64,000 nt of DNA from Sipunculus nudus. Taxonomy: Eukaryota > Annelida > Sipuncula > Golfingiida > Sipunculidae. The stretch spans positions 25,944,401 through 26,008,400 of the forward strand of contig CM049317.1 in the NCBI GenBank assembly GCA_026874595.1. Reading direction: 5' to 3'. Shown piece after piece: positions 5,851 through 61,469 of this stretch. The stretch's first letter is position 1. Each line of letters opens with the position of its first letter. Under the pieces are notes generated by a model. That model ran no database searches and was not told the DNA's origin. It was given only the letters and a program-made list of their open reading frames with translations. A program made the position numbers and the translations under genes.

Positions 5851-5858
5851 AGTCTCAC

Positions 5859-7220
5859 CGTGTATCCAGTTCCAGCTCAGTGGCCTACTTTTACCACCGA
5901 GCCAGGCGTTATTGAAATTTGTTTTATTTAGGAGATGTATTAGAACATCATGGACATCATCTGTTTCATCAGATGCAAGGCGTCCGTAGTTCTGTTTACA
6001 AACCGAGTGTGCTTCATACCAGGATACTCTTCTTCGGAACAAACAAAACGTCTCTGAAAGAAGAATGCTCATGCACACACACACATATATAATATATTAT
6101 ATATATTTCAATACATGCATACGTATATAGTTCAAATAAACATATTGTTGTACATTCTAATAACATATTTTTTTTTTGTATTTCTTTGTAAATTCATTTT
6201 TTATGCAAATAAGAAAAATGTTTAGAAAAAATTGCAGGGTTATGTTATTTCATAAAAGATATTAACTAGTCAATAGTCATGTGTCATTTATCAATCACTA
6301 GGCCAATGATTGAGTCAATAAAGGTAATAATGCATATATAATGTCCCTTTTTATAGAAACGTACTTATGTGTTTTATAGTATCATATAAAAAGTACGAGA
6401 GAGATATATTTTTATCTTATATTTTCTTTTTTTTTTGGGGGGGGGGGGGTCAAGTTGATGACATGCAAGAAACGAATACTCTGCTGGGAATAACAGTGTT
6501 AGAGCACCTTTCTAAGTCTGAACTTTGGTGGAAGAAACTGCCATTATTTTCATGCTTGCTTAATTATTTACTATGTATGCATAGTATGCACAGCTGCAGA
6601 GTCGAATTCGAGTTTCGGACTACGTTACAGGGGCTTATACTAGATTATCCTGGTATCACCGTGGCTTGGTTTAGCACTCCTGTGGGCCCTAGGTATCTGC
6701 CAGTCCCATTTCTGGGTCATAGCAACTAGGAACCCTCGAAAGGGTAGGAAACCGGCATGTAACTGTTAAATGGAATCGAACGTAAATAAATGTGGATATA
6801 AATATTAATATTCCATGAAATTCCAAGTTGTGTATGTAAGTTTTGTCCCAACGATGAGTACCCTTCTACGCCCTCCCCCCCCCCCCCCCTTCCCCTCCCC
6901 CCCCACCTCCCACGTCCACCATTACCAGTCATTTTGCCACCGTGCGAGTCACCCCCCACCCTCACCGGGGAAGATAAATTGACGCCACTGAAAGAAACCT
7001 TTATACGGCAAATGTATTTAGTATATATAATGAAATTAAACAAAACAGACCATGAAGACCTTACGGATGCATGGTTAAGGGTGTATGTAAAAATCTGTGT
7101 GTATGCTTTCCTACCATTTCCAACGTTCTGGCAAATTCTGTCAGTAGCAGCTGCCTGTGAAGCAAACAACAGTAGCAACTGCAGAATACTTGAGCCAAGA
7201 TTCACCAGCGGTTTATTCAT
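5859..7220 (-). CDS. CTLD gene, 5' part: signal-peptide exon plus first CTLD half-exon
   Basis: Two minus-strand exons fit together. Exon 1 (7,220-7,115) starts with ATG and encodes 35 residues with a hydrophobic core SILQLLLLFASQAAA, a typical signal peptide. It ends at a phase-1 donor (G|GTAGGA). Exon 2 (6,053-5,859, 195 nt) starts at TTTCAG in phase 1 and ends at a phase-1 donor (G|GTGAGA). It encodes the first half of a C-type-lectin-like fold: SWYEAHSVCKQNYGRLAS, then AWLGG and W-x-W. Family knowledge says this is the helix-1 and WIGL part. The upstream frame to 7,283 is open, but the ATG at 7,220 gives the better signal peptide. The second CTLD half was not found, so the gene may be partial or a remnant. 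Ligand unknown. Confidence 0.6.
6435..6450 (+). repeat. Poly-G tract
   Basis: A run of about 13 G after a run of T, inside the intron between the signal-peptide exon and the CTLD exon. A matching poly-C tract lies at 6,878-6,900. Both can cause assembly errors. Confidence 0.8.
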
Positions 7221-31677: not shown

Positions 31678-34343
31678 TCAAATGTTTTCATACCTTGGTA
31701 TGATATATTCCTTAGGTTCCACAGCTTCAGTTGCTTCATGCAAGCTTGTATTTGGTCGTTTATTCCTCTCGGGTCTAATCGGCTCTACCAAGCACAGATT
31801 GGTGGTACCAATGTCTTCGGCAGCATTGCCATAAAACCTCAGCGGTTCATATTGTGTTCTGGTTGTGTAGCATACTTTTACTTCATTTAGCAAACTGTTC
31901 GGATTGTTTTCATGCGCAGGAACGTTCTGCTCTTCAACAATTTCTGTTCCTGGTATATTGACATGGAATGACGTAGAGGCAACGGTTGACTTTTCCTCTG
32001 AAGCAAGCTTTTCAATATCATGTAAAGGGCCAGGCTGGCGATTGGTGGCGACATTCCCAGATTCAAATATTCTGATTTCTTCTCTTTCACCATCAAAAGT
32101 AATTATTTTTGCTGATGTATTTAACTCAAATATGGACGATGATTCCACATTTTCATACATATCCCCATCGTCGCTACTATAATAGAGTACCTCGCTGACA
32201 CAAGGATCTGACATTTGGGAACTATAAAAGGAAGACGCCCGGGATATTCTTCTCTCCAACGATAGATTAGGAGTCGGCAATCTTCGGCAACGATATCCTA
32301 AAAAAGTTTCTTTTGTTATCATATTCATTTTTCATTTTATTTTAGTTGTATACATATCATACATTAAAGTCAGGTCGGAAATCGCTTTTATTTCTCTTTT
32401 AATTATGAAAATATGTTGGCCTTTTGCATTTTTACATAGTTAAGTAATTTCTAACCTGTAACACCAGCAAAGTAATGCTACGCCACCAAGAAAAAGAATA
32501 ATCATTCCAGAGGCGATGACCGGTGTATAAATGTACATTTTGCTATTCCGTACAAATACAGCTTAAATAGGGACCATATAATTATTTGATAAAACATTAC
32601 ATTTACGGATTAATTTTTTATATAATAATCAATCATGCCCGGCCATCTATTTGATATATTTCGTGCCACCTTGTATAATGTCTGAATTTACAAGTATATA
32701 GTTTATATATATTATAAGTTTATAATGTCTAAATTTTACTAAATGTACAAACCTGTTACTTCCTCAGTGTAAGATGTTATTCCCAAAGAGGAATTTGTGG
32801 TCTTGATACTGGCAAACGGATCTTTAAAATGATGGAAAATAGCATTTTATATGCTGACATATAACGGTTATTGAAAACAATCGAATGATAATGATTTTAA
32901 TGTTCGGTATTACAACTGGATTATCATAAGTTTGATCAAGACAAAAACATATATAAACAATCACACCTTCATCACAGAAGAAATGCTTGGGATTGTTACA
33001 AGATGAGGGGGCCCACTTGTACATGTAAGTAGCAGAAACCGTCACGCACTGCATCTCTTCAGCATCAGCATTTGCCCGAAACCCGCCATCCAGAATGTCT
33101 GTCCGACTGGCATCGCAATGGCTGTGTTGAAATAGTCGATACACTCCGATATGGTTCTGCAAGTAAACTCATAAGTAATATTTGAAAAATCGAACAATAA
33201 TTTTAATATGATACCTTCTTTATATAAGATGACCCAGTCGCTCCTCCGTAAGCCGACCCAGAGCTCCGAGCATATCCCTTCTTCATAAATACGTTTGTAT
33301 GTAACATGAAAAGGCGCAGTTTCTTCTGTCAGCTGTCTACCGTTTTTTGTACGTGGAACACTTATAACGAGCATCAAACCAATTGCTGACGTTACAATGA
33401 ATCATCAGACAATAGTCTCCTTGACAAAGGCAGGAGCCTTTAGGACAAATGACACACCCTACAATGTATTTTTAACTTGTTGAGTGCATTTTAAGCAATC
33501 ATATAAACATGACATCTAAGATATTAATGCGCTTAGTTCTCGTGTAAAACAGCACAAGTCTCTTACATTTTTGTTGACATAGAAATCCCTCGTAATGTTC
33601 AAAACAATTCGCAGCATATATTCCTCCCTGTTTTACCACCCCACAGTCAGATCCGATTTCCTGGCGATAGGGCTGTGTGGCTATAACAATGATAGTGGCT
33701 TTCGTCAGTAAATCACTCGTTCAGTATATGTAGCAATGATGTAAAGTTTTAAAATGCTGTGCTAGTCTTTAACTTACAAAAAGTAATTTAAATGGTTGAC
33801 ACTTTTTCAAAGACTAGCTGTATGTAGGTTCTTGTACATATGTGGCAATGTAATCTTACCAGTGGGCTCTTTCAATATGTTTGGAATTTTTTATTTTGTC
33901 AGATATTTTTGTAATATTTGATAGTCTCCATACGGATATTCTATTACAGATGGGAATCAATACTTTTCACTTTGCCATCTCGCGCAGAAAATAGAATAAA
34001 ATGACAAATATTTTAAGGAGTAGTCTTAAAGATTTCTACAATCCGTAGTCAGCTTATCAACAGTAAAGACAACATAAGGGTATAACAGGCGCCACTGAGC
34101 TTGTGGTCTTAATTATTTGTTTTTAGCACTGATACTTACGAGAAGCCTTGTTGCTGGTATACTGCCATTCCGAAAATCTCCTCTGTTTAACGTCAATCCA
34201 CAAACTGTCAAGACCAAATTTTTTCTGACTTCTAACTAAAGATTGTTGATCCTTAATGCTTAAAATTATTGGAAGCCGCATCCCTTTAGCCAGACAGGAA
34301 TCATATGCATTTTCGAAAGTGTCAAATCCAAAGCCCCGTAAAC
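31678..34343 (-). pseudogene. Double-CTLD transmembrane receptor, unit A copy (broken)
   Basis: Exons match the intact unit B gene: 34,343-34,140 and 33,680-33,567 (CTLD1), 33,458-33,215 and 33,121-32,967 (CTLD2), 32,821-32,753 (linker), 32,561-32,456 (TM), 32,297-31,678 (tail). Three indels break it against unit B: an extra A in a six-A run in CTLD2 (244 against 243 nt, soon giving TAG), a one-base loss in the next exon at GGGTTTCGGG, and one extra base at the start of the tail exon, which puts a stop just after the transmembrane helix. The tail frame itself is still open over 206 codons and ends RYENI. Recent decay is likely. Homopolymer error could explain the first lesion but hardly all three. 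No signal-peptide exon was found. Confidence 0.75.
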
Positions 34344-34344
34344 C

Positions 34345-35330
34345 TTGGTGTTCAAGACTTATTAAGACATAAGGATAAATTGAACAGTCTTATTTAAATC
34401 GACATGCAATTGCACTTTCGGCTAAGCGATTTATATTTTTACCAATAATCAATTATCTACCTTAATTACTTGCTTGTGCGGACAGTGTATTGGCTGTATT
34501 GTTTATGTATTTTAACTTCGCTTTGTCTTACCGCCAGTGGAATCCAGGATTTTTTAAGCCAAAAGTTTATATTTTCCAAGCAAGCTATAGCGTCCCAACA
34601 GCAAGATACTATTTTACGTGACTGATTGAAATTGGTTTATTTCCGTCCCCTTACAGATCCATTGGGTCTTGGAGAAGAAAAGGTTCGATATGCTTTGCTT
34701 AGCTGACTCATTGGTGAGTGAACACGCCCTGGTGGCTGCAAACTCAGGCCGGAAATATTGGTAAATATTCTTTGAGAGTTCAAATACCCAGTGGGTACTC
34801 TCTGGAGCACGGAGTCAAGGGAGTATAGTTAGTCAGGACCTCTTGTATGAAGCGCATAAAGCCGATGGTTCGCTTAACCTATCAGCTTACGGTAGCTTCT
34901 ACTTTCTACGACCCATTAGGCTAGACCAAGCGAGGCCAATTCTGACGGGTTTGACATCCAGCATCCGCGATATTCACACCCTGGGGAGGCCACTACAGTC
35001 TCGCTTTTTGTGAGGAAGCTGTCCTTTAAATTCGGAAGTTGTTCTTTAAAGGATTATAACTCTCAACCGATTGTTTCATACTCTAGTTCAGCTTAGATGG
35101 GCAGCCTTTTGATAAAAAAGAATATACTGGCCATCAAACCTCTGCCTGCCCCCTTTAGTTACTTGGAGTCTATTGTACCTCCAAACATAAAGATCAGTCG
35201 AGAACCTATCTCCAGGTAAATGCATGGAGTTAAAAAACTCATGCTTGTCTGACACGCTGGAATGTATGTATCATGCACACGGGTAACCCTTGTGAGTCAC
35301 GGTAGGTGGACACTTCTAGGAGGATGGTGA
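34345..35330. other. 5' flank of the unit A receptor copy, no gene seen
   Basis: Partly similar to 45,850-46,470 in unit B (shared gagtactctctgga and cctatcatgtcagctt-type stretches). The missing signal-peptide exon should lie here or further up, but no phase-1 hydrophobic exon was convincing. Confidence 0.4.
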
Positions 35331-36572: not shown

Positions 36573-37450
36573 TTACATGGTCTGTATACCATGGTCATTA
36601 CATTTTGAGCGTCTGTCATCATATGAGCACTCGTACATTGACTCTCTTTTTTCTGCGCGCCTAGACTCTCTCTTTGTTTGCTGATAAGAAGTAATGTCTA
36701 TTCTTAAGTTGCACACTTGTTAAAAAAGTTTACGGAAAAGTCACATAACTGCTCAAATCGTTATACACGTTTGAACATGTTTACAGTGAATCCATAATTA
36801 ACGAAACAGTTACTGCATTTCTAATGAAGAGGCGTTCTCTCACCTCCGCGGCTAACCAAAGTATGTTTACATCCGGGTGGTTCAGCATATCGTGCAAAGT
36901 AGTTATAGTGGCGTCGGTGTCGTTAGCCCATTCTAACACCCTCTCCTTTGCTGAAAGTTCGCGATCTTCTTCATTTCTTCAAAATGTGATCGTCGATTAG
37001 CTTTGTAGAGATTTCATAAATGTTTGGACATTTATGCATTTCCTGTTTTTAATTTTCTGTCGTTTAGCATGGTTTAATCATTACATATGTTGTAAATGCT
37101 TTCCTTATATTATAATATTATGTGTTAATATAATATTGGATCTGAGTAAACATGATTTTATATTAATGACAAGATATACCGGTAATATATAAAACCAAAC
37201 GAAAATAATATTGATAATAAGAATTTCGATATATATTTTATGAGAATATATATTCAATGTTGAAAAAAACAGACACATTTCTATACATGTTCCTAATTTG
37301 TTCAAAGAAACATAGTCTATGAGAAAAAATACCTGATAAGTATTTGTGTATCCTGTATCTGTTTTGGACTGTATCGTTTGCGTCTCCCAAATTATCCGCC
37401 ACAAGGTTGATCGCTTCTTTCAAGGTAAACGACAATGGGATATTCCCAGT
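36573..37450 (-). pseudogene. Death-domain gene 3' end, unit A copy (truncated, frameshifted)
   Basis: Three exons match the last three exons of the ZU5-UPA-Death gene. The first (about 37,450-37,327) starts the Death domain (SFTLKEAINLVADNLG), has lost a clear acceptor, and has a 31-nt deletion that shifts the frame. The second (36,976-36,814, 163 nt) and the last (36,680-36,573, 108 nt) keep the exact lengths and open frames of the full gene, ending in GIQTM. No ZU5, UPA or ectodomain exons lie upstream; unit B begins there instead. The fragment was therefore cut off by the duplication boundary. Confidence 0.8.
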
Positions 37451-38407
37451 TTTTATTCCTAATAAAAATATTTAAGATCCATACGTTTAAAAAGTTCCTC
37501 CCAATTTAACGTTCCAACTGGAAGGGTAATTAAAAAATAAGTAAATGTTCAGGGCTTTACAAATAACGAAATATATTTCTTTTAAGTTCCATTTTTAAAT
37601 TAAAATTGCATGAATATTTAAATAAATCATAAAATTACAAATATAATTATTAATTTATAAATTAGATGAATATTTTATCCAGGATAATGAAAGTTATTAT
37701 TAATCGTATCTAAGTCAGTTTAAGAGTAGTTTAATGGAACACCTGTTTAAAGGCCTTTTATAAATAAAAATTAAATACAGCGATGTAAGCGAAATAATCG
37801 GCCTGCACAATGACCAGGAAAATATATATTAGGCATATGAATGTATGTGGTCATATCGACCGCCGTAGATGTGGGCCTTGATCCCAACCAAAGAAACTGT
37901 ATAACTGTATGTTATCTTACATCGGCGGTGTACCAAGGCGTCTTTAACAATATAAATGTATTTACTTTGAAAGAAAAACGGCTGTTCGCCACCATTTATC
38001 AAATCATTAACGAAAATTCCTACACGCTGACCCTCATTCACCGGAGGTGTACCGTCATAAAATGTTTACTTTTCGACAGAGTACCAACCATGGAATGTCT
38101 AATTCCCTGTTGATAATCAGGTAGCGATGACACAGGGACATTCATTATGTACTACCATCAGTGTATATAAGGCTTCTGCTTAGTCTAGCCATTGCTACAT
38201 CACCCATTATCTTTTATATTTACTTTCATCAACTAGAAGGAAAATAGAAGGCCCGAAGATGGAAGTATAAAGGAGACATTTAAGGCTGAGTTTGGAAAAT
38301 TAAAGTAATCAGTCCTATCCTATGGAAGGTAAAATTATGAACAATCTACAAAACCGAATCCCCGACAGACTATATTAAGACGTATAATCTTAATGATACA
38401 GATAAAA

Positions 38408-43105: not shown

Positions 43106-45844
43106 TCAAATGTTTTCATACTTCGGTATGAGATATTCCTTAGGTTCCATAGCTTCAATTGCTTCATGCACGCTTGTATTCGGTCGTTTATTTCTCTTGG
43201 GTCTGATCGGCTCTACCAAGCACGGATTGGTGGTATTAACATCTTCTACAGAATTTTCGTAATATCTCAGTGGTTCATATTGTGTTCCGGTTGTGTTGCA
43301 TAATCCTACCTTATTTAGCAAACCGTTTGGATTGTTTTCATACGCAGGCACGCTTAACCCTTTAACTTTTTCTTCCTTAGGAATATGAACATGGACTGGT
43401 GCAGAGAAATCGGTTGAATTTGTCTCGGAAGCAAGCTTGTCTGTATCCTGTAGAAGGCCAGGTTGGAGGTTGGTGACGAAGTTCCCAGAATCCAATATTC
43501 TGATTTTTTCTCTTTCAATATCAAAAGTAGATATTTTTGCTGATGTGTTTAACTCGAATGTTGACGATGATTCCATATTTTCATACATATCCTCTTCGTC
43601 GCTATTATAATAGGGTAATTCGCCGTCACAAGGTTCGGGCCTTTCGGAACTACAAATGGAAGATGCCCTGGATGGCCCTCTCTCCTGTGATAGAGTAGGA
43701 GTCGGCGATCTTCGACAACGACGTCTTCAAAAATATAATTATTTTTGTCATTTTTGTCTTTTAATGGTTTAATATAAGTTATATACATATCATATATAGA
43801 AGTCAGATACGAGGCTGCTTTTATCTTTCTCTTAATTATGAAAATATGTGTTGTTTCATTTTCACATAGAGAAGTAATTGCTAACCTGTACCACCAGCGC
43901 AGGAATGCTACGACACCAAGAAAGAGAATAATTATGTCAGAAGCGATGATCGGTGTATAAACGTGCATTCTGCTGTTTTGTACTAATACAGCTAAAAATG
44001 GAGACAATACAATTATTTGTGGAAAAATTAAATGAATTTTATATAAAAATTAGCCATGAACCGCCAGCTATATTAATTACTTGAGCGGCCTCCTACTTGA
44101 GTAATGTCTTAAGTTAAATTTTTGACTCGGTCAATATTCTACATATACATGCCTGTTACATCCTCAGTGTATGATGATATTCCCAAAGAGGCATTTGTGG
44201 TCACGATACCGGCGAACTGGTCTTAAAAATGTAGAAAATATGCACTGTATACATGCTGAAAAGTACGTTTATTAAAAGAAAGTAAAATGATAATATTTTA
44301 ATGGTTCGCTATTGCAACTGGATTATAATCAGAAAAGTATACGTATAGAAAATCAAACCTTCCTCGCAGAAAAAATGCCTCAGATCGTTACAATAAGTCG
44401 GAGCCCACTTGTACATGTAGACAGCTGAAACAGTCACGCATTGCATCTTTTCAGCATCCCCATTCGCCCGATAACCCGCCATCCAGAATGTTTGTCTTAC
44501 TGGAATCGCACCTGCTGTGTATTAAATAGTTTATTATCCTTTAATAACCGCTGATAGTCGTATTATAGTACACTTGGTTCTCTTTCAATTGCACTCATTA
44601 ATAAAGTTAAAAATCGAACTGTTATTCGAATATAATACCTTTTCGATATGAGATGACCCAGTCGCTCTTGCGTAAGCCGACCCAGAACTCAGAGCACATC
44701 CCTTCATCATAAATTCGTTTGTATGTATCAGAAAACGGCGCACTTTCTTGGGTCAGCAGCCTTCCGTTTTTGTACGTGGAACACTTATAGCGAGCATCAA
44801 ACCAATTTCCAACGTTACAATTAATCCTCAGACAATAGTCTCCTTGACGTAGACAGGAGCCTTTAGGACATATGTCGCAGGCTACAATGTATAATTAAAT
44901 TCGAGAGTGCTTTGTTTATTTATACAGATATACATATATATTTATATTCATATTACCATATCCATGACATATACTCATATGTGGATAAATATGTAAATGG
45001 TTTCTAAGATATTAATATTTTAAAACAGTCCTCGTGTGTAACACAATTAATCCCTTACATTTCTGTTCACAAACAAATCCCTCATAATGTTCAAAACAAT
45101 TGGCAGCATACGTTCCTCCCTGATTCATCACCGCACAGTCAGAACCTATTTCCTGGCGATACGGTTTTATAGCTAGAAAAATGATAATATTTCTAGTTAA
45201 TTAACCTTAATAAAAGTAACATTATATAAAAAAACCCTGTATATTAACAATTTGTCAAGTGGTTATTGTTTTACCAGCCATTCGTTTAAACTCTACTCTA
45301 AACAATATTTGATTGGCAATTCTTTGATCTCCCCTTACGTATAACATATTGAAATGGCATGTTAGTGACTCTATACTTAGCAACCACGTCGAGAGATCAA
45401 ATATATATTAAGAAAAGGCAAATAAAAGAAATAGTTGGACGATTTATAAAACTCGTAATAACAAAATTAGCGCATTGTTAAATCTATTGTAGTCCTGGTC
45501 TTTCATATCTAGGATAAGCACGAATACATTGTGAAAATATTGCAGCGTGAATAAACTCGAAGATAATAGGGAAAAGCCACATAATCTTGTATAAATAAAA
45601 TATATTAAAAGTGACAAAATCGTATTTACACTTTCCTTACTAGAAGGCTTGTTGCTGGTGTACTTCCATTCTGAGAATCTCTTCTGTTTAACGTTGATCC
45701 ATAGACCCTTAAGACCAAATTTTCTCTGATAACTAATTAGAGATTGTTGATCTTTTATATTTGAAATTATTGGGAGTCTCATCCTCTCAGCCTGACATGC
45801 TTTGTATGCATTTTCGAAAGTGTCAAATCCGAAGCCCCGTAAGC
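43106..45844 (-). CDS. Double-CTLD transmembrane receptor with Y-E-N tail (intact copy)
   Basis: Seven exons join in frame: 45,844-45,641 and 45,172-45,059 (CTLD1: FENAYKACQAERMRL, GLWI, then DCAVMNQGG and FVCEQ), 44,881-44,639 and 44,511-44,359 (CTLD2: YCLRINC, NWFDARYKC, FWVGL, then QCVTVSA and HFFCEE), 44,221-44,153 (linker), 43,991-43,886 (TM, IIASDIIILFLGVVAFL), 43,724-43,106 (about 205-residue tail, stop TAA). All extracellular introns are phase 1. The tail has DEEDMYENM, PAYENNP and C-terminal KYENI, possible SH2 or endocytic motifs. I see no EPN/QPD sugar-binding motif or ZU5/death domain. The linker exon donor is GC (CAG|GCATGT) where unit A has GT. The signal-peptide exon was not found. 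Likely a cell-surface immune-type receptor; ligand unknown. Confidence 0.8.
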
Positions 45845-45849
45845 CTGAG

Positions 45850-47300
45850 TTCCAGAATCATGAATTGAAAATAAATCAATATTTATTAATATAAGTAACA
45901 AACTCTCGCGCTTACGGATCAGCGATGTTATATGTTTAATGCAAATTATAATTTGTCTACACGTATGACTGAATGGAGGGCAGAGTGTTTGTGCTGCACT
46001 GTTCCTGCCTTTAACCTTGATGAACCGATGATGTAAAATGTGAAGCCTATGGTTTGATTTTTTCTAGCCAGCTATATATTTCCTGCAGTGTAATTCTCCT
46101 TAAAGTGGTAGATAGAAATTCGTCCGGTGTCCAAAAGCAGAACTGTAGGATCTCACTGGACATAAAGTTTCGAATACAGGGCGAATGTGACTCGCCGGTG
46201 AGTGGCGGCTGTGTACTAAGGTTGTACTATTTCTAAATAGTCTTGGCCACTGAAAAACGGTTCATATGACCTGTGAGTACTCTCTGGAAGAGAAAAGTCT
46301 ATAGGAGTTTACAGGGAAGGTCCATGGGAAGTTTCATAGAACATGGGATGTAAGTCGCTGAAGCTGATTAATTGTTTACCTATCATGTCAGCTTCTGCCA
46401 GCTTCTGTATCTCTACGACTCCGTAAGTAAGATCGGGCATTGGATTATAAAAGGTTGACACTTCAGATAATAAGGTTATGTACTGCAGACATATGAGTGC
46501 CAAACTGGGGGTTTCAAAGCCTTGTGTTCTGTGAAACATAAATCAGAAGAGAACCTTGCTTCTCGAGTTGCAAGCCGGAAAGTCCGTTCATGGCCACACG
46601 ATCAGGTTCTTTTAAAGGTCAAACCAACAAACTGAAAAGGTCACACGCATAGTTTCTAAAAACTGAATAAGAAATATGTTTACAAAACAAATCAATATAT
46701 TAAATTGGAGCACTAGAGAGATGTTCGATATGTAGGAGCGCTGATGATTACTAACGTCCGATAATCAACATAGAATTAAGCACCATGTCGGTTAGACACG
46801 CTTTACAGAGCAGTATCTTTGTTTTCACTTCTCCTAGTCACAAGACGTACGTGCCATTAGAATTTTTCTTGCCAAGCTCACCATCTGTACACGCTGAGTT
46901 CATAGTACAATATGTCCGCTTTTAAATACATGGAGATACAAACACCAACAATCCTTACTGGTTTAACTCTCAAGGCTCAGATCACGCATTACTTTCTAAC
47001 TTGAGCACAGATGATTCTATCTTGACTCAGAATAAAATGTGTATCACAGCTGATGTCTCCTGGAATCATCCAGTTCTAGGTAACTGAACTTGCTTCGACC
47101 AAGCGATACCCGGTGTCTCCACAGTTACGCGCTAAAATAAAGTCCTTGGTCTGTGCCTTTTACATCCGGTATAATCGCCAGATTTTTAGTCCATCGGCAA
47201 AATGCGTTACTCGCTCTGAAATTAGTTAAGGAGAAATCACCGTGGCTTCCTAAGACATCGACTATCTACGCTTACAGACATCATATCTGAGCTGTTTCGA
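45850..47300. other. 5' flank of the unit B receptor, no gene seen
   Basis: The minus-strand frame 46,539-46,309 and other short frames have no domain. The signal-peptide exon of the receptor gene should lie here or beyond but was not recognised. Confidence 0.35.
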
Positions 47301-48255: not shown

Positions 48256-50720
48256 ATGGAGTCATTGAAGTCCATTATCGAATGTCTACAAGCATTAGGC
48301 TACAAGGACGTTGCTCTTTAAGAGTATGTTAACACGCGTGTAGAGGCATAAGATACCATGCAGGGGGAAGACGCGAGACAGGGCCAGACGGGAACGTGAA
48401 GTATCAGAGCGGGAACCCGAGCGTGAACGTGAAGCCAGAGTACACGAGATAGAGGTGCTGAAGTTGAAATCGGCATCCAGTACAAGCGAGTAAGCAGAGT
48501 AGGAGTTGGGGATAGGTCCAGAAACTCAAGCTAGCCCCGTTAGACGAGCACCACGATGAACCAGACGCGTTTCTGGAGCGTTTTGAGCGTTTAGCCCTGT
48601 GTCAAAATTACGATCGTGATAGCTGGACATTGTGCTTATGTCCTTTGTTAGGTGGTAAAGCACTTGATACTAACGCGCATTTAGTAGTTAGCGACACCAT
48701 GGACTACGATAAGCTCAAGTCAGCTTTTTTAAAGCCTTACCAGATGACTTAGGCAGGTTATCGTAAAAATGTTCCGTATTTGTAGACCAGAGTGGCAAAA
48801 CTCTCTGTCAGCTCGCGGGAAGGCTAAGTGGACACCTTGACCTTTGGATGGAGATGGCGGGTATAGGCGATGACGTCAACTATTGATTGACTTGCTGATG
48901 CATGAACAGTATTTGCACTCTTTCAGAAAGAACTTCTCTTTGTTCTTGTAGGCGAGACAGTGTCGAGAAATAGATAGCATGGTAGAGATGGCCGAGCGGT
49001 GTACGAAGGCCCACTGCTTTCACAGTTTTACGGCGATTTCCCGTAGTAGTGTTTTCCGAACAAAGCAGCATGTAACTCAGCCAAGAGAGATACGTGATAC
49101 AGATGGCGGATTACCTGAACAGTCTGTTAAGCCATTGGAAGGCTTATGTTGCATTATTTGTAAGGTTTTGGAGCATATAAATATGAAAATACCAATAAAT
49201 GTAAATAAACACGTGCCAGGTCTGGGCCAAGGTCTACCCCACAAGCGTTGCACTCAGCTATTGAACAGCGTTGGGATAACTGAGAAATGGTCACGGGGCT
49301 TTACCAAAGCGTAAGCTTGAATCGATATCAACGGCTGTTACGGAATCCGAGCCGGCAACCCTCAGTCCTGTCAGGATTCGGTTCACAGATTCAGCCATAC
49401 CGATTGACTTCTCTGGAAGAGAACGTGGAATCCCCTGTGGAAGTGTTTACTAGTCCGTATACGCGTGATAAACGCAGTCATCTGGATGGACCAAGTATCG
49501 TGGTTCACGAGTCGTTACGGACTGATGTTGTGCAAATGGGGCACGAGGCGAATATGGCCGGCCATCACGGCGTTGATCTAACATATGAGCGTGCAAGTGG
49601 CCAGTTCAACTGAAAGGTGTGTAAGGCGACACTGCCGAGTTCAGCATGTCGTTTACCATTCATGAGAAAAGAACTGGATCTCAGCATGTCTCTTGTATTA
49701 TGCTACCTATACTATTCGGAAAGATCCGATTCGTGATCATTAACCGTAAGTTGAATCAGTCGGTTGTATCCGATCCAGAACCGATGCCGGTATCAAAAAC
49801 ACTGTTCACGGAAGTATCCAAAAGACGATACTTTACAAAGATTGAACCGACGAAAGACTACTGGTAGATTCCGGTGTTGGAAGAATCCAGAGGCAAAACG
49901 ATGATGCGGAAGCTGTTCAGTGACATGCGAGCGTGATCTGCAACATAGACGACGTGCAAGAACACGCGGAATCATGGGACGAGCATGTAAGAATACGTAG
50001 AGAAGTGCTAACTAATTTTTGAGCGCGCCAACGTGCTGCTAACCCAGGGGAAAAACGTTCTTAGAATATTTTTACCACTTTGTGAGCTCCGAATACTTAG
50101 CTACAAACCCATCGCTCTTTGAGAAAATCCAAAGCACAGAAAGACTTAAACCAAGAAAGCCGTGCGCAGCTTTCTAGGCCTAACCGGTTATTACCGGAAG
50201 TTCGTGCCAAACTTTTCTGAGATTCCGCCAATGAACCCTACGCGGAAAGGACTGTCTAATAGATTGGATTGGAAAGAGGTTCAAAAGAACGCGTACAGCT
50301 CACTTAAAGCTAAGCTTGCTAATCCCCCCATTCTGAGACTGCCTGGTTTCAGTAACCTTTACTACCCGAAATACGACGCGTCGAATTTCGGAATCGGAAA
50401 CACCCTTATGCAGGAACACTATGGGATGATGCAGCTGACAGCTTAAGCTGGCAGAAATGTACAGGCTAGAGAGAGAGAGAAATTACTCTACCATTGAGAG
50501 AGAATATTTGGCTATTGTTCGTGCAGTGCAGAAATTTGAGATACACTTGCAATGTAGGCAGTTCACGTTATAAACAAACCACAAACCACTCGAGTGTATT
50601 AGCAAAGCCAATTGCGAAAACAAGAAAGTGATGATATAGGCTTTAGTGTTACAAGAGTTTAGGTCTGAGATACAGGCTATCTCTGGCAAGTTAAACCATG
50701 GGCCAGACTTTTGTAGGAGA
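48256..50720 (+). mobile_element. Degenerate Ty3/gypsy LTR retrotransposon (gag-pol remnants)
   Basis: Multiple stops throughout. A gag-like start (MESLKSIIECLQALGYKDVA) is followed by an Arg/Glu-rich stretch and a SCAN-like gag core (48,540-48,750: FLERFERLAL, LLGGKAL, MDYDKLK). A zinc-binding integrase-type fragment follows at 49,490-49,610 (HEANMAGHHGV). Reverse-transcriptase pieces follow at 49,690-50,100 (KIRFVI, NRKLN, DYW, then DDV and HAESWDEH in shifted frames). The connection and RNase H region is 50,160-50,720 (SFLGLTGYYRKFVPNFSEI). LTRs were not identified. The integrase-like piece lies before the reverse transcriptase, the reverse of the usual Ty3/gypsy order. The element is dead and interrupts unit B. 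Confidence 0.75.
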
Positions 50721-52177: not shown

Positions 52178-53038
52178 TCAGATTGTCTGTATGCCCCGGT
52201 CATAACATTTTGTTCTTCCGTCATCAATAGAGCTCTCATACATTGACTCTCTTTTTTCTGGGCGTCTTGACTCTCTTTTTGTTTGCTGAAAAGGTATAAT
52301 AACTATTATTAGGACGGGTTTGCAAATATCACATCAGTATTGTTAGAAATCGCGTAACGTTCAATCGTTATACTTTGAACACACATACAGTGAATTCATT
52401 ATAACTTAATACTTACTGCATTCCTGATGAAGAACCGATCTCTTACTTCTTCTGCCAACCAAGGTATATTAACATCTTGATGGTTAAGCATGTCGTGCAG
52501 AGTGGTTATAGTGGCGTCGGTGTCGTTGGCCCATTCTAAGAGCCTCTCCTTTGCTACACGTTTTCGATCATTCTCATTTCTAAAAAAAATTATAGAAATA
52601 TTCATTAGCGTCTGATGTGACACACCTATATATGTATATAAATTAAAATACACCAACATCAGGAAAATCTTTTTTTTTAATGTTTACAATTATAATAAAA
52701 ATGTAAATATAATACATTGTATTAAAATATGACTTGCGTGATGTACAATTGGGAATTTGGAATTGTACATAATTCTATGATAGATCCGGTCCTTTGAAAC
52801 ACTCTGATAAGTGTGTTTGATTATTTATAGCTGAGAATAAGCCCAAGAATCAGGCTGTCTGGCATTTTCGATGCAATTTATACCTGATTGACATTTGTAT
52901 GTCCTGTTTCTGTTTTAGACTGTACCGGAACCCGTTCATAAGCAGCCTGTCAAAGTCATTTGCACCTCCTAAATTGTCAGCTACAAGATTGATCGCCTCT
53001 TTTAGAGAGTAAGACAATGGAATATTCCCCGTCTTCAG
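52178..53038 (-). other. Death domain and conserved C-terminal tail exons
   Basis: Exon 53,038-52,884 (SLKEAINLVADNLGGANDF, DRLLMNGF) and exon 52,579-52,417 (RLLEWANDTDATITTLHDML, then WLAEEVRDRF) make a six-helix Death domain, split in phase 2. The last exon (52,285-52,178) begins QTKRESRR and ends GIQTI before TGA. The unit A fragment keeps the same exon lengths and a very similar tail (ending GIQTM), which supports this last exon as truly coding. Confidence 0.85.
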
Positions 53039-56000
53039 CTGTAGTTGCACAAAAAATAAGACAATTTTGAAAACGATGATCTGATTGTCTTTATAAGTAT
53101 TATATTGTTTTTAATGAGTGAACAAGAACGAAAAGATATTTCTGAAAGATTCATATTGTCACATATACCAAAAATTAACATAAAACAGTATGACTAACCG
53201 ATACTCAATATACTCAATATCAGCCATAGATATCATATGTGAGGTGAACATAATAAGCGTGTTTTGCAAACGACGGGCATTCATTAGATTGCATTTTATG
53301 ACACAGTAACAAGAAGATTATTAGAGAACGAACTAATAACATAAAGAAAAATATACTAAACAACGAATTCATATGGATAATGGGAAAGGATATGTCAGAT
53401 TTTTTATAAACTTGATGTAATAATCACCTGACTCATTTTTATGATAAAGTACAATGATGTTTCCAGTTTGTGTGTATACTGTTTACGGGCACTTGATTTC
53501 CTTAATCTGAAGACACTCTTATCAGGAGTTTCCTCAAATAAAACAGAAAACTGAAACTCCCCGGCAAAGTTTGTGTCTTGCATATTTTCAGTAGTTAGAA
53601 TGAATTGAAGTGGTGAAGGGAGACTCCCAGAGTGGCAACTAACGAATGATGATAGACTTCTCCTCTAAAAGTATAGAAAACTATAGTCAAAATATAAATT
53701 ATATAATTTAATGCAACAATTTTACAGAGGCTAATAAATATTTTTTTTAGAATTAAGGGAATGTTCCGAAACCGTTAAGTATCCTCGTATAAAATGGTTT
53801 TACCAAGAATAGCCTTGTTAAATTGTTTCTCTTAATCGCATGGTAAACATAACATAAAACATGTCAGAGTAGACGCTTGTATATGGAAAAGAAGACAGCC
53901 AGGCAGTTTTACATATACCATCTTCAAAGAACACCTTTCTGAAAACTTTTCAAAAGCAGATATTGAGTTTATAATATCTAATGTCTAGTCTAGTTTTATC
54001 ATTTTGTTCCCAGGTTTTTCATTTTTCGTAAATTATCGTTTTCTTTAATACGATGTTTTGATTTTCTGCAATAGGTAATCAACGTTTAAAGCATAAAAAA
54101 CATAACGGACCAGAAACAGGGTCACCCCTTCAGTGGAGCTTCTTCTACCTGGTCTCAAGATACTACCAGAATCAGGGTTGATAGCCACCTTTAAAGAAAA
54201 GCAAAACCGATTTAGAAATAAAATGAATATGATTGGCTGACAACAGTGCATCGTTAATACATTTAGAGGTTTTAACTGAAGGAAAGCTATGGATATTTAT
54301 ATATAACATATATGACGTTTAAAAGGTCCAAGGCATTTCGGTTGCAGTATCTTTTAGATAAAGATAAATTTTTACCATATGATCTCAATCGTTTATGTCT
54401 AGTACATAACCGAATAGACATACAATAGTACATGGTATTGTAATACCAAATGATTACGATTTTGGCGAATTGGCACAAAATTTCAGTCTTCCACCATACA
54501 TATTTATAAACAAAATATAGTTTGTTTTCCATTTGACAAATAGACAAATTATCACATGACTTTTGCATGTGCATTTTTTGCCAGTAGTCTCTGTAGGGGA
54601 TAAATATATTTGGATATGTTACCTCTCCTAAGATATGTGTGATTTTCATTGGATAAAAACCCTGGGTGGATGTTATGTGAACACGATTGCAGGTGGTGCC
54701 AGCAGAATGGATTTAACATAAAACTATCCAAGAATTATTATAAATCAACTATGTTGTCATGGGGCTCATGGTAGACGAATGCGGCGACGGTGTAGCCCGC
54801 TTGAAAATATCGACCTTCCATATAAATACGATAATCATTGGACTGTTGCTGCTAAGTGTTGAATCAGGAAATTAGGATATACCTTTTCATCAGTCCTTTT
54901 TACCATTGAGTGAAGGGTCTTGTCCCAGGATCCTCCTATCACATGAAGTTCTACCTCCAACTTGTCTGTGGCATGAATAGTTTTTATTCCAGTGACATTT
55001 GACAGCGGTATGTTTGCGTGAAAAGGCAGTGGTTCACATTGTTCTCTTTGTGCAAGGTCCTACAACGTAGCAGTATTCAAATCTAAAGAAAACAGTCGTG
55101 CCATATTAAGTTAACACTTTCGCTGCCTATGACGAGTACACTCGTCATATTTTTTTATTCCCCCAGTGCCTATGACGGGTATACTCGTCATGAATTTATC
55201 AGCAATTTTCAGTAGGAAATCTCTTAAATTTATCAATAAAATCTGCGCAGGTGAGTAGTAGTTCATTAATAAATTGGTTTCTTGTCATGAAATAGTAAAA
55301 TTTATTATTCATCAGTCCGCTTGATAACTCAAAAGCAAGAAAGGTTTTGGGAACGTGAAAATATCCACGGCTCTCGTTCTTTACCGTGTATAAGTTCATG
55401 ACCCGCTGTAGTGTAAAATTAATACCGTGTAGGAGTTTTCCTTAGAATCAAACGAAAACGAGGATTGCAATAAAAATCGGTCTAGTTTTATATTTGGGTG
55501 TATTTTGGCCACTTATTTTCGGCAAACCCGCTGGTGAGACGGAGGTGTGCCATATCGCACCTGAGGTGCGTGAAGTCGTTCAGGTTTATTGCCCCGCGAG
55601 GACAGCCTATTGCGCAATCAACAACAATAGGGCGCGTGCCACTTGCCTGATACACAGATCGGCAGGGTAATCAGAACGCGGCTGCATATTATTGGTTTGG
55701 CATATTTGGAGCTATCTCGCGCATCCTATACATTTAGAGATAGCAATATGCTTGTGTAAATTGTAAAATTCTGAAAGCAAACTCTGACGATCACTTGCGG
55801 AACATGTTGACCCTTTAGTATAGGCCTACCGACAATCCCAACGCACTTTGGAATTCACCATATGCAACCCCGACGTATGACTTTCAGACAATTCATAATA
55901 AAGCATTATAAGCCTTGAGTTGATCATATTAGGTTACACTTTGATCACACGCAATTTTCGTATAATTCCCGGCATCGTTTGACGGTGACAATGACGAGGT

Positions 56001-56504
56001 CCACTGTATCATGCTATCGCCTCGGTATGTAAATAACTCTATGACTGTGTGTAATAAAATATAATACCATTTTTAGAATTATAATGATTGGTAGAATCAG
56101 TTTGTTCGTAATGAAAAGCAAAATAGTAAATTTTTCAGTAAAAATACAAGTTTGTAAAATGAAAGAAAAAGAAAAAAAAACGAAGCGAGGAATCGAACTT
56201 GCGCGGTGTTCCGTCGCGTGTTATTTGACCTACTACATAACTCCTGAGCCATCTTTCCACAGGTGTAATTGTAAGTTTATAGCAATCATAAACCAGACTA
56301 AGACACAAACCCCCGCGAGTTCTACCAGATCGATGAAGTGATATCAGAACTTTGATGATCATACATGATAAGAACTGTGACGTTTTATAAATCTTCATCT
56401 ATTATTTCAACTAATATCTCGAAGGTCGATCCGAGTGGGTACAGGAGCCGCTATTGCATGAACCGCTGGACTTTCCCGGGCCTGGTGTAAACATATGAAT
56501 TCTT

Positions 56505-56579
<75 letters not shown>

Positions 56580-56597
56580 CATATATTACATATATAC

Positions 56598-56656
<59 letters not shown>

Positions 56657-59600
56657 TTGTGCGTGTGAGGGCGCATCTGTGCTTGTGTGCGCATTTTTCC
56701 TTTGAAGTCCCTTCTGGCTGTAAGCCTACTTACCTAATAAGGCCGAACAGGGTTATGACATCCTTCTGTGCATAACACCTCGGGCAAGTTTTATGGCCTT
56801 TGGACCAGGTGGACTTCATACCCTCGTTATCAGCTTTTCACACCTAGAACTTACTCACCCGGACCTACTCGAGACTTTTGCAGGCCCTGGCACTAGGGGA
56901 ATATTTGGCTGGGCAGTGAATGTGTTAATTGTTTTGTTTCAGTTCCAGGACATTCATCATTTAATCATAACATTATCGATATCTCTGTCAAAAATAAACC
57001 ATAGGAAAGTTATTTATGTGAGAAATAAAGGTAAGCTACATTATACATAAATCCAAGTCACCTAGAAAGATGCTATAGAAAATATATGACATTTCAGTAT
57101 AAAGAAAATAACGGAGCTTTATCATGATATTTTAAAAATGAAATTAAGGAATTGATATAAGAACATGTAAGCAGAAGACAAAAAGGTGTCTTTCAGATAT
57201 TAAATGGAAAGCTTCTCTTAGTATTCCATACCATGTTCCCTCATTTCATGGGTGGAGCATCCAATTTTTACCACCTATGGTAATCTTAATATATCTCCTA
57301 TTATATACAATGGATGAATGTTTAAAGAACACACGTACATTCAGAAATTATATACTAATTTTACCTTCCTGTAATCCTTAATTGTATGGAGCTGGTCAAC
57401 AAGGTACATATGAATCAGCAGGTCTCGCTTTCTCGCTGGTTCATACGCCTCGTTCAAGTGTCCGAACAACATCACCTGTAAGTCCAGCCATTTATTGCTT
57501 CTTTGTTTACATACACATTTGAACTGTGTAAAATGTAGTGTGTACACCTTAACATGGTCACCAAACCATTCCCAGTACAAGGTTTCTTTGATATTATTTC
57601 TCTGATCATCCTTCTTTATCTCTTTCCACGGTTCTTCGTTGTTGGCCCGAAAGAAAACCCCTACAAATGGTGATAACTTTTCAGGCACACAGTGAGGTAT
57701 ACGGATGACCACGTGTCTCCTGAACCGTCCTGTAGTTTCGTATTCAACTACCGGGCCTGCAAGCGTTTCTGTCGTCTCATCCACATATGTGATACAGTTT
57801 AAGTGAATATTTTCTTTGATTATAATTGTTTTGCCTGAATCTATTGCTTCAGGTGGAACTTGTAAAGAGACCAAAGAGTTTTCCCTTTGGAAGCGTCCCC
57901 CTTCGTGATTTGCTTCGTACTGGTTTTGCCAAGGGATACTCTCTTGCAACTTTAATGGGTTCTCTTTCTGTTGTTCTCTTTTGTGATTCGACACCGATTG
58001 AAGGGTTGATTGGTTTTCATTGTAATAGTTCACATCATTGAGACCGTTTTTGATGGCTGTGGCTTGCAGCTCTGACTCAGAGTTAGAGGCTCCATTGGAT
58101 GCCTTAGCTTGCGTGTTGTGTGCTTCAAGGAGTGAAGTCATTCGGTACCCTTCCTGTTAAAACGTCAAATTATTTTTAAAAATGTAAGGCAGGTATTAGC
58201 AGATAAATGATGTTTCTTCTGATATATAATTAATGTCTTTACGTGCCGGATTAAGCTGATGGATTCGTAATGTTACATCAAATTCTTACCCGGAGACGTG
58301 CAGAGTGCCGACGGGATGGCCGTACATAAAATCTATGTATGGCCCATAGTGCTGTTACGATACTCACAAGAACACCAAGGGCTCCTACCAGACCAATCAA
58401 TGAATCCAACTTTATTGAATGGTTGTGATGCCAACCTGAGCCTGGAGTAGATAAAACTTAGAAAATTATTTGCTGGTTGAAACGTTGAATCATGTTTCAT
58501 TTGCATCATGTCATGTATCGGTCTGTTGATTACTTCTGTCTCTGACGATTATAATCACAACCCATTCGAACTCATCATGATTCATCAATTTTATCTTGGA
58601 TCCTTTTACATTCAATCAAGTCATTTATGCTTAAGATGGGTGACAAGGTAAATTGGACATAACCTCTCTGTAATTCATATACATGGTATATCTATTTATC
58701 TACAAAATGAGTAACTGCTGACCAGGCCATAATGATTGTGCTGTCCCCTTTTCTTTGTCATCAGGTGTTGTTCCATTTTCACCGTTTCCTATTGGAAAGC
58801 TTGTTAGAACGTTCCCTTCTGTTACCAATCCTATTGAAAAAAATGACTAATTGTACAGAGCGCCTTAGTTTCTCCAATGTTTACAAAGAAATATATTTTA
58901 GATTTCGTTAAATACACAGTATTGCAATATACATATCACTGTAGCAGTAACGAACACCTAAATACGGAGATCAAGTAATTTACATTTGCTATAAAACGCC
59001 TTTTCCATATATTTCGATTCATAAGGATAAATTAACCGAATCTAAATATATAAGGTGAAAACACAGCCTACCTGAACTGAAAACACATATAAACTCGTGT
59101 AGTTCTTCACAACCGACTGCTTTCCATACGAACCGATTGGACGCCTGACTCTTGGTCATTAGGGAACAATCACCACCTCGCGAAGGCTCGTTTGGTCCCC
59201 ACAATGACAAACTATCTATTTCTGTTTAAAAAAATGGTGTAAACCTTAATCAAGTAGAATGTGTTTAATAAAGTCTTCTACACACAGGGTGTGTCAATTA
59301 AGAAGAACGTCAATTTAATCAGTTCTATTTACATGATCTAAGCAGAGTAGAAGACTGCCTGAATTATATGATCTGTATATGACAATGTAAAACAAAAGCA
59401 AAATTATTTTTGTTAACGTTACTGACAAAAACAAATGTCCTTACAAAATCCTATATGTAAACACGTGCACGGATAATGAAGGAATTGTTTTTTCTTCACG
59501 CGCTTGTACATGCAAGAACACGTTTATTTGTATCGTCGAGCAAAGCAAAATCTACATGCATTTCTGAAGATAAAGTATGTTGTTTTCCATATCTTGTATC

Positions 59601-61469
59601 GTGTATTGTAGGATTAATACCTTCTCCCGATGCTGAGGACCAGACCTCCCGCCGTGAACCTATCCAGGATGGCTTACAATGCTTGTACATCTTATCCTTC
59701 TGTAAATCCTGCATCAGTTGAATCAGACTGTCATTGTTCAACTTAGCAAGCTCTCCTCCGATTCGGTGACACTTAGCTCTGGCATCGTACCAATTCTCTG
59801 CTTTACAGGAATGAATGTAACAACGGTTCTCACGCCAAACACAGTCCGATCCAGGAAAGCCGATGTGACTACATCCATGACAATCTGAAATAAACATTAG
59901 CTTATATATTAGGATAAATCTACCTTGTATACCATTAGATGATAGTTTGCTGATGGTTTAAATTGATGTATATCACTCATTAACTGAGCAGCTTATATAA
60001 TGGTCTTTTAAAGAATTAACATTTGACTTTCGCCACAACTTTTTGTTCAGTACTATAAAGAATTTCAGCATGATTGGTCATAACTGTGTACTCTGCTAAG
60101 GATAACCGTGTCATTCTTACAAGATATAAATTAAAGCATTAACTATGCAATATAAAGGAAATGCTGTCATCATATCATTGATAATTATATTTGGGTGTCG
60201 TACCCTTTTTCTCACACAGGTAGCTCAGTCCTTGCATGTTACAGTGATGAAAGTCATATTTTATTTTTCTTCGTTGCAAGTCAACTGTACCACAGTCTTT
60301 GTTGATGCTCGCTGCTACTGATTTCTCTTGATTAGCTGCAATATACAGATTCATTAGGTGTGGCAATGTAATAAAAGTGGAACATATATCTATAAGAACA
60401 TTTATAATTAGTATATATATACAGCAGACCTGAGGACGTTGAGAAATAATACAGAAGAACCCAGTGATCCATTTTAATGTATATTAACTGTCCGACTGAT
60501 TAAATTATTATTTATGATATATTCAGTTCAAACAACCATAATTTGTGTTCTGTCTAAAAAGACTAAAACCAGTGAAAAGGACACCGTGAAAATCCAAGCT
60601 TAATTCTGCTTTTCGGTTTATGATCTAGATGTTAAAAAGGAACATCTGTGCCACAGCATTTCTACACACCAGGTAAATTTTTGCTCATTCTACATTACAG
60701 TATGTAAAATTCATTAATTGTTTGCTTCATGGGTTTCCTTAAAGAGTACCAAAATAGGCCCTCTTCCAAAATGCTTAATAGCAGGGCAAAATAAAAGGTA
60801 CTAGCTAACAACTAGTAAAGAAGGGCAAATATCTCCAAATAAATCCATATTTACATAATATACTGCCATCCACATAGGACCAGTCTTCCAACCGATGTCT
60901 TTGATACGCCAACCAGGACTCTGTGAGGATAACTTCGTGAAGATGCAGGTTATCTTCATTTGACGAAATTGTTGGTAGGGAAAAGGGAGAGCCGATGTCT
61001 TTACAAACCTTCCTGGCTTGTTCGAAGGAAAGCTTGTCTTTCACAATACGTGTACTTGAGTAGTCTATCAATAGAAAATGATATTATGGTTGTGAAAGTA
61101 TGGCGGGATAAAGAATCAACATGTATGTAGCTGGTATTTACATTTGCATAATTCTTACACAAATGGACACAACTATCTATGAATGCTCTTTCCAACATTC
61201 TTTGGTGGCATCATTCCCGACGTTTTGAGTAATTGTCACATCATGACACCAGCATTCGGCCAATGAAATATTGAAAATTATTGTAATGTGTATGCATAAA
61301 CAAAGTTTTTTCCCTAGGTTCATTAGCGTTCACATTATAAATATATTAAAAAATGGTATTTGGTCACAGCAAAAGAATGGCGTCAATAATAATGGCGTAA
61401 ATAACAATACTTACCTGAAGTTACCGACCAGATTTCAACTATGACCAGAACTATTCTAGATAGCCACAT
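52178..61469 (-). CDS. C-type lectin receptor with ZU5-UPA-Death signalling tail
   Basis: Fourteen exons join in frame at every boundary: 61,469-61,415; 61,064-60,864; 60,335-60,204; 59,884-59,621; 59,221-59,072; 58,830-58,723; 58,441-58,290; 58,153-57,365; 55,059-54,883; 54,188-54,126; 53,664-53,428; 53,038-52,884; 52,579-52,417; 52,285-52,178. The product is about 917 aa: signal peptide 1-19, CTLD1 20-129, CTLD2 130-267, linker, TM about 318-338, Asn/Ser/Gln-rich stretch, ZU5 about 438-570, UPA about 571-770, Death domain about 785-880, 35-residue tail ending GIQTI. Family knowledge: ZU5-UPA-Death is the signalling block of UNC5 netrin receptors and PIDD. Here it sits behind lectin-like domains. 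The weakest junctions are exon 2 (an alternative end at 60,855 is also in phase) and exon 10 (donor GGG|GTGACC). A role as a ligand-triggered death or NF-kB type receptor is inferred. Confidence 0.85.
53428..55059 (-). other. UPA domain exons
   Basis: Exons 55,059-54,883, 54,188-54,126 and 53,664-53,428 are all phase 0. They continue the UPA fold (PLPFHANIPLSNVTG, DKLEVELHVIGGSWDK; then LPSPLQFILTTENM and GEFQFSVLFEETPD). UPA is conserved in UNC5, PIDD and ankyrins and packs against ZU5 and Death domains. The small middle exon is the least certain part, because its donor is weak. Confidence 0.65.
56181..56260 (-). ncRNA. tRNA-like sequence (tRNA pseudogene or SINE head)
   Basis: On the minus strand, TGGCTCAGGAGTTATGTAG resembles a tRNA A box. 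About 30 bases on, AGTTCGATTCC fits the B box (T-arm). A run of T follows, as at a Pol III terminator (56,169-56,180). Spacing fits a tRNA, but I could not fold a convincing acceptor stem, so a tRNA-derived SINE or pseudogene is more likely than a working tRNA. Confidence 0.45.
56500..56655. repeat. (TC)n and (TA)n compound microsatellite
   Basis: About 40 bp of (TC)n passes directly into (TA)n. A second (TA)n of about 48 bp lies at 56,606-56,653. Both are inside the piggyBac-like element. Confidence 0.95.
57365..58153 (-). other. ZU5 domain exon with HFT motif
   Basis: A single 263-codon exon, phase 0 at both ends. After a polar Ser/Asn/Gln-rich stretch it reads GGRF, SLVSLQVPPEAIDSG, TLAGPVVEY, RRHVVIRIPHC, PWKEI and VYTLHFTQFKCVC. 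These follow the ZU5 consensus (vPpGAi, SPvV, V.lriPHC). The HFT (57,535-57,527 on the minus strand) lies where PIDD has an HFS used for self-cleavage. The UPA domain begins at the exon end (DLLIHMYLVDQ) and continues in the next three exons. Confidence 0.85.
58723..61469 (-). other. Signal peptide and double-CTLD ectodomain of the ZU5-Death receptor
   Basis: Exon 1 encodes MWLSRIVLVIVEIWSVTS, a signal peptide, with a perfect donor CAG|GTAAG. CTLD1 spans exons 2-3 (LSFEQARKVCKDIG, SWLAYQ, DWSYVDG; then DCGTVDL and LSYLCEKK). CTLD2 spans exons 4-5 (CVWRENRCYIHSC, NWYDARAKC, PSWIGSRR; then LWGPNEPSRGGDCSLM and HEFICVF). Exon 6 is a Gly/Thr/Asn-rich stalk. All these introns are phase 1, the classic shuffling phase. 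The W-G-P-N-E-P-S stretch lies where calcium-dependent lectins carry EPN/QPD, but the second ligand motif (WND) is not evident, so sugar binding is uncertain. Confidence 0.8.

Follow-up and report, generated by a model that had tools for sequence, protein, structure and literature searches.

The window analysed here, a stretch of 64,000 nucleotides from Sipunculus nudus (contig CM049317.1), carries on its minus strand what we read as a single gene for a type I membrane receptor with two lectin-like domains, one membrane span, a ZU5-UPA module and a death-fold-like region. Together with the mechanism proposed below, this reading is given a probability of roughly 0.6. Splicing of the genomic sequence joined 14 exons, from 61,469 to 52,178, into one frame of 920 residues (2,763 bases including the stop codon at 52,178; Table 1). 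All 13 introns start with GT and end with AG, and the phases agree along the whole chain, with phase 1 at the junctions 1/2 to 6/7, phase 0 at 7/8 to 11/12 and at 13/14, and phase 2 at 12/13. Exons 6 and 10 have weak donor sites and are less certain; exon 10 (63 nt) can be skipped without change of frame. The chain as such had been described in the initial annotation, and it was recovered at the same positions in one frame with all phases matching. That annotation had proposed a lectin receptor fused to a ZU5-UPA-Death tail: the order of lectin, transmembrane segment, ZU5 and UPA is upheld by way of the paralog family, but the Death domain is not established.

Lectin-like ectodomain and ZU5-UPA module

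Pfam searches with the halves of the window protein scanned apart revealed Lectin_C twice above the curated cut-offs, at residues 29–131 (E = 1e-6) and 161–268 (E = 1.5e-11), which bears out the two C-type lectin-like domains annotated initially. Apart from Lectin_C and ZU5, the matches listed by Pfam lay below their cut-offs. Among the solved structures, those that match the second lectin domain best include codakine, CLEC4A and the mannose receptor (E = 6e-5 to 1.3e-4). Lectin_C is the only Pfam content of the ectodomain; the immunoglobulin and thrombospondin type 1 domains, which UNC5 receptors carry in place of the two lectin-like domains, were not found.

The ZU5 domain was confirmed by a Pfam match at residues 439–513 (E = 8e-9, above the curated cut-off) and by its fold. 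Across the full 1.43 Gb of the genome, in 153 contigs, a search that scored the best candidates and hence gives lower bounds found at least 24 ZU5 exons; at least 18 of them, the window's own included, lie on the window's contig, designated C12. With an E-value limit of 1, each of the 18 family members matched ZU5. By sequence, the family profile matched UNC5B (PDB 3g5b) best (E = 4.3e-12). The structure model of exon 8 adopts the ZU5-UPA fold, with UNC5B first in Foldseek, and also matches the ZU5-UPA fold of NLRP1 and CARD8, PIDD lying outside the comparison; a single-sequence AlphaFold model of this exon, with a mean predicted local distance difference test score of 31, was left unused. Family profile and structure model both extend into the first UPA strands of UNC5B, and conserved exons on the downstream, UPA side were homologous in five of the seven paralog stretches examined. 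The exon 11 family profile found no match in the PDB. For the UPA domain of the initial annotation, profile, model and paralog exons thus support the first strands, whereas the exon 11 profile and Pfam (see below) do not. Matches to the GAIN domain of adhesion G-protein-coupled receptors were treated as kinship of fold and not as membership; GAIN is extracellular and stands ahead of a seven-helix receptor, unlike the predicted cytosolic ZU5 of the window protein.

Paralogs along the chromosome

Stretches of 10 kb, about 9 kb of each upstream of ZU5, were fetched for the 17 other C12 loci and, out of the six ZU5 places outside C12, for two on contig C3 and one on contig C2. With the window protein alone as tblastn query, exon 4 was detected upstream of ZU5 in nine of the 17 C12 loci (E < 1e-4). 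Trained profiles found exons 4 and 5 together upstream of ZU5, with strand and order preserved, in 10 of the 17 (L009, L010, L011, L013, L015, L019, L021, L022, L024 and L025); these profiles were built from the same loci they searched, and the untrained figure is the nine for exon 4. L023, with lectin exons on the opposite strand, was excluded from this count. The trained profiles also detected a homologue of exon 2 in seven of the 17 loci (E < 1e-10) and no lectin exons upstream of ZU5 in the three loci outside C12; a homologue of exon 3 was not recognised in the paralog loci. Chance alone would give about 0.01 lectin matches in 10 kb of a single strand, a rough estimate based on 2,756 first-look candidates in 1.43 Gb, of which 150 were scored.

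A transmembrane candidate, mostly followed by basic residues, was present upstream of ZU5 in 12 of the 17 paralog loci, chosen by eye among all hydrophobic stretches listed; an ambiguous candidate in L018 was not counted. The first donor-like site behind the transmembrane segment, compared in 13 sequences including the window, was of phase 0 in ten and of phase 1 in one, and two had none. Because the order of lectin, transmembrane segment and ZU5 recurs in diverged paralogs, with the lectin exons upstream of ZU5 in 10 of 17 loci against none of three elsewhere, the comparison argues that it is an inherited architecture and no chance neighbourhood. Between L022 and L024 the transmembrane-ZU5 block is 94.5% identical, whereas the lectin exons are 45–50% identical, with the break just upstream of the transmembrane exon; the two genes appear to have exchanged ectodomains while the tail was conserved.

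Two further observations concern the family. The exon 4 homologues of L013 and L015 are 96% identical and their other shared exons 77–82%, as after gene conversion. On contig C3, L008/L026 and L027 represent a second kind of ZU5 gene, with no lectin exons in 10 kb at either place.

Proposed mechanism and competing explanations

From these features we infer a receptor that would act at the cell surface. Since the receptor lacks canonical sugar-binding residues, what it binds outside is probably an atypical glycan or a protein. Binding would cluster the receptor or loosen the packing of the ZU5-UPA-tail and make the C-terminal region accessible to signalling partners, possibly with an immune or cell-fate output. 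Such an exposure was proposed for UNC5 and PIDD. With H-F-T at the end of ZU5, the chain of this member may also cut itself between Phe565 and Thr566, and the resulting UPA-tail fragment might be held non-covalently and be releasable.

The H-F-T site was not mentioned in the initial annotation and adds a sharp hypothesis to it. In the profile alignment, H-F-T of the family aligns with Q-L-G of UNC5B (chain residues 136–138). According to a paper on CARD8 and NLRP1 (PMC3210808), Phe296 of CARD8, the residue before the cut, maps to Leu677 of UNC5B. An offset of 540 makes Leu137 of the alignment Leu677 of UNC5B and places two cysteines at 663 and 670, the pair named as a disulphide in that paper. 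Since alignment and offset place Leu677 at Phe565, Phe565-Thr566 corresponds to the CARD8 cleavage position. In the structure model HFT (model residues 135–137) lies between predicted strands 128–133 and 138–143, before the last ZU5 strand. The self-cleavage motif of ZU5/FIIND is H-F-S or S-F-S and that of GAIN H-x-S/T; the window protein has HFT at residues 564–566, with Thr instead of the Ser297 that follows Phe296 in CARD8, whereas UNC5B has Gln-Leu-Gly. Thr is able to act as nucleophile in GAIN domains (PMC13062082). The eight members with HFT share a mean identity of 31% over 159 gap-free columns, and T--HFTQF-C holds 7 of the 15 columns that are invariant among them, three of the seven by choice of the set. 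Tentatively, and as less likely than not, one can propose a family of membrane lectin receptors that self-cleave at H-F/T in a cytosolic ZU5, in which outside recognition would free a UPA-death-like fragment into the cytosol as in an NLRP1/PIDD-style break-apart switch, with ectodomains exchanged among the copies.

The odds are about even that the lectin receptor uses an UNC5-like tail which acts by closed/open packing and partner binding, with no self-cleavage. UNC5B is both the best profile match and the first Foldseek row, and the cleavage position across the 18 members reads HFT in eight and HLS in one, the other nine having no H-x-S/T and three of these ending in Gly as in UNC5B; this must be set against H-F-T-Q-F, where invariant positions are most concentrated among eight diverged members and which coincides precisely with the CARD8/PIDD site. 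A tail serving as cytoskeletal or scaffold anchor, similar to ankyrin or ZO-1, in a receptor for adhesion and not signalling, is unlikely: UNC5B gives the longest alignment with the model (180 residues, whereas ankyrins do not exceed 150), the family profile reaches ankyrin at E = 0.69 only, and neither ankyrin repeats nor PDZ domains were found by Pfam in the window protein. Very unlikely is a wrong joining of two adjacent genes, one for a lectin receptor and one for a cytosolic ZU5-UPA protein, by reading through from exon 7 to exon 8: the gene model is a prediction from genomic sequence alone, five of the 17 paralog loci have no clear transmembrane exon within 3.5 kb, seven have no same-strand lectin exons in 10 kb (six with none, and L023) and the ectodomain may be missing from some family members, but these two exons lie only 136 bases apart, the arrangement is repeated in diverged paralogs, and the C3 relative L008/L026 has membrane span and ZU5 within one open frame.

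Several observations weigh against the reading of one lectin receptor with a ZU5-UPA tail and a death-fold-like region, whose gene structure is a prediction from genomic sequence. UPA and Death, which the initial annotation had named beside the two domains recovered by profile, gave no Pfam match in the window protein at E up to 10. C-type lectins bind calcium and sugar through EPN or QPD, plus WND; judged by eye, these residues are absent from the lectin domains of the window protein, the second of which has EPS and WKA at the corresponding places. Ordinary calcium-dependent sugar binding is doubtful for the family as well, because most of its second lectin-like domains have W-x-x-x-[EQ]-P-[STA] and no WND. 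H-x-S/T is kept in only 4 of the 11 lectin-bearing members (the window, L009, L010 and L011), so self-cleavage cannot be a requirement for every member. The five remaining HFT members (L012, L016, L018, L020 and L023) have neither same-strand upstream lectin exons in 10 kb nor a clear membrane span, and are perhaps cytosolic or equipped with other ectodomains. By eye, the UNC5-like gene of this genome has S-L-S at the cleavage position, and Ser there is not family-specific.

The same holds for much of what was found on the Death-like region. Exons 12 and 13 resemble a Death domain in look, with statistics suggestive at most. Their score was reached by 40 of 2,000 shuffles with a profile of 20 Death domains from the same genome and by 53 of 300 in an HHalign comparison; pairwise against 21 Death domains of the genome, the mean score was reached by 5 of 500 shuffles in local and 23 of 500 in global alignment, all of which is weak. 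With the UNC5 of the genome as sole partner, the score was reached by 215 of 500 shuffles in local alignment, and tests by PDB sequence were weak or negative, like the other methods. An intron similar to one inside the Death domain of the UNC5-like gene, in both of phase 2 and splitting an Arg codon, was discounted, as the places differ by a few residues. A genome-wide search with exons 10–14 returned the gene itself, the second copy that the window contains and a single match at chance level (E = 3.5), and exons 12–14 had no recognised relative in seven 8-kb stretches downstream of paralogs; because relatives were not seen outside the window, the C-termini of other family members may differ.

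The second copy of exons 12–14 (window 36,576–37,471, minus strand) is degenerate, with exon 12 out of register. Exon 13 and its copy show 81% protein identity, with a nonsynonymous divergence (dN) of 0.10, a synonymous divergence (dS) of 1.16 and a dN/dS of about 0.09; for exon 14 the values are 0.14, 0.61 and about 0.22. These low ratios rule out noise and argue that exons 12–14 are real coding exons, the second copy having been under past purifying selection. Coding sequence is what stands of the Death domain annotated initially, its identity being suggestive at most, and the proposed cell-death control, which rests on that domain, is likewise not established.

Table 1. Exons of the predicted receptor gene and the position aligned with the CARD8 cut (window coordinates)
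Feature	Position	Strand	Evidence
Exon 1: start codon and signal peptide (MWLSRIVLVIVEIWSVTS)	61415..61469	-	translation and donor; signal peptide by eye
Exon 2: first C-type lectin-like domain, first half	60855..61064	-	Pfam; homologous exon in paralogs
Exon 3: first C-type lectin-like domain, second half	60204..60335	-	Pfam
Exon 4: second C-type lectin-like domain, first half	59621..59884	-	Pfam; paralog loci
Exon 5: second C-type lectin-like domain, second half	59072..59221	-	Pfam; paralog loci
Exon 6: stalk	58723..58830	-	translation; weak donor GTCAGC
Exon 7: transmembrane helix and basic stop-transfer; phase-0 donor	58290..58441	-	translation; transmembrane survey of paralogs
Exon 8: juxtamembrane region, ZU5, first UPA strands	57365..58153	-	Pfam, family profile, structure model
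His564-Phe565-Thr566: CARD8/PIDD self-cleavage position (UNC5B Leu677 = Phe565)	57527..57535	-	alignment; PMC3210808
Exon 9: putative UPA, middle	54883..55059	-	translation; by-eye likeness to paralog frame in L055
Exon 10: putative UPA linker, uncertain	54126..54188	-	translation; weak donor GTGACC, in-phase skippable
Exon 11: putative UPA, last strands (VSCH motif)	53428..53664	-	homologous paralog exons
Exon 12: Death-like region, first half	52884..53038	-	translation; Death-domain comparisons
Exon 13: Death-like region, second half	52417..52579	-	purifying selection against second copy
Exon 14: C-terminal tail and stop	52178..52285	-	translation; dN/dS against second copy

Neighbouring genes and relation to known systems

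Two tandem lectin-like genes are located on the minus strand of the window at 31681-34389 and 43109-45857, with DNA blocks 77–85% identical. Their lectin exons match the family profiles, with Pfam Lectin_C just below cut-off, and the last long frame of each encodes a tyrosine-rich tail with YEN/YEPL-type motifs and no ZU5; these neighbours appear to combine a like ectodomain with a different tail. The minus strand also has one more C-type lectin exon, at 5848-6096 (Pfam E = 1.3e-5). Just past the 3′ end of the receptor gene, an open frame on the plus strand (50150-50443) resembles, by eye, a piece of retroelement reverse transcriptase/RNase H. Genome-wide, dozens of lectin-domain matches with near-equal scores are dispersed over many contigs, the open frames around them being about 362 or 382 residues long, which looks like a mobile element carrying a C-type lectin domain.

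As is predicted for the window protein, the UNC5 netrin receptors are type I receptors in which ZU5 is followed by UPA inside the cell; UNC5 ends in a Death domain, whereas the Death-like region here is suggestive only. A separate UNC5-like gene of this genome (contig C2, near 33.68 Mb) encodes ZU5, then the genome's only three Pfam UPA matches, then Death. The ZU5-UPA fold is shared by NLRP1 and CARD8 (FIIND). These two and PIDD are cytosolic, whereas the module described here is on a predicted membrane lectin receptor. We know of no family in which a lectin sensor drives a ZU5-UPA module. Residues 290-920, compared with 5.8 billion protein sequences, gave nothing at E = 0.001 among the best 7,996 candidates scored, and the open-access literature matches listed for ZU5 with lectin, death-domain, mollusc and receptor topics contained no lectin-ZU5 receptor in the titles, abstracts and passages covered. 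The transmembrane C-type lectins of bivalves (PMC10140915, PMC12842671) likewise form expanded families with a membrane lectin-like ectodomain, and a word search of the main text of both papers found neither ZU5 nor UNC5. A mussel shell proteome includes one ZU5 + Death protein (PMC6641155), and from the oyster Crassostrea receptor-like proteins that contain TRADD-N domains have been reported (PMC8195603). The new class of receptor suggested initially is a fair description of the architecture, none alike being among the literature matches listed, whereas ZU5-UPA and lectin receptors are each known.

One module is common to UNC5, PIDD and the NLRP1/CARD8 inflammasomes. If our reading is true, a single chromosome would bear many copies in which this ZU5-UPA module is coupled to a domain for recognition at the surface. 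This would provide a natural set of cleavable-looking and non-cleavable versions for comparison, and a concrete path by which recognition outside the cell could reach a signalling tail in the cytosol.
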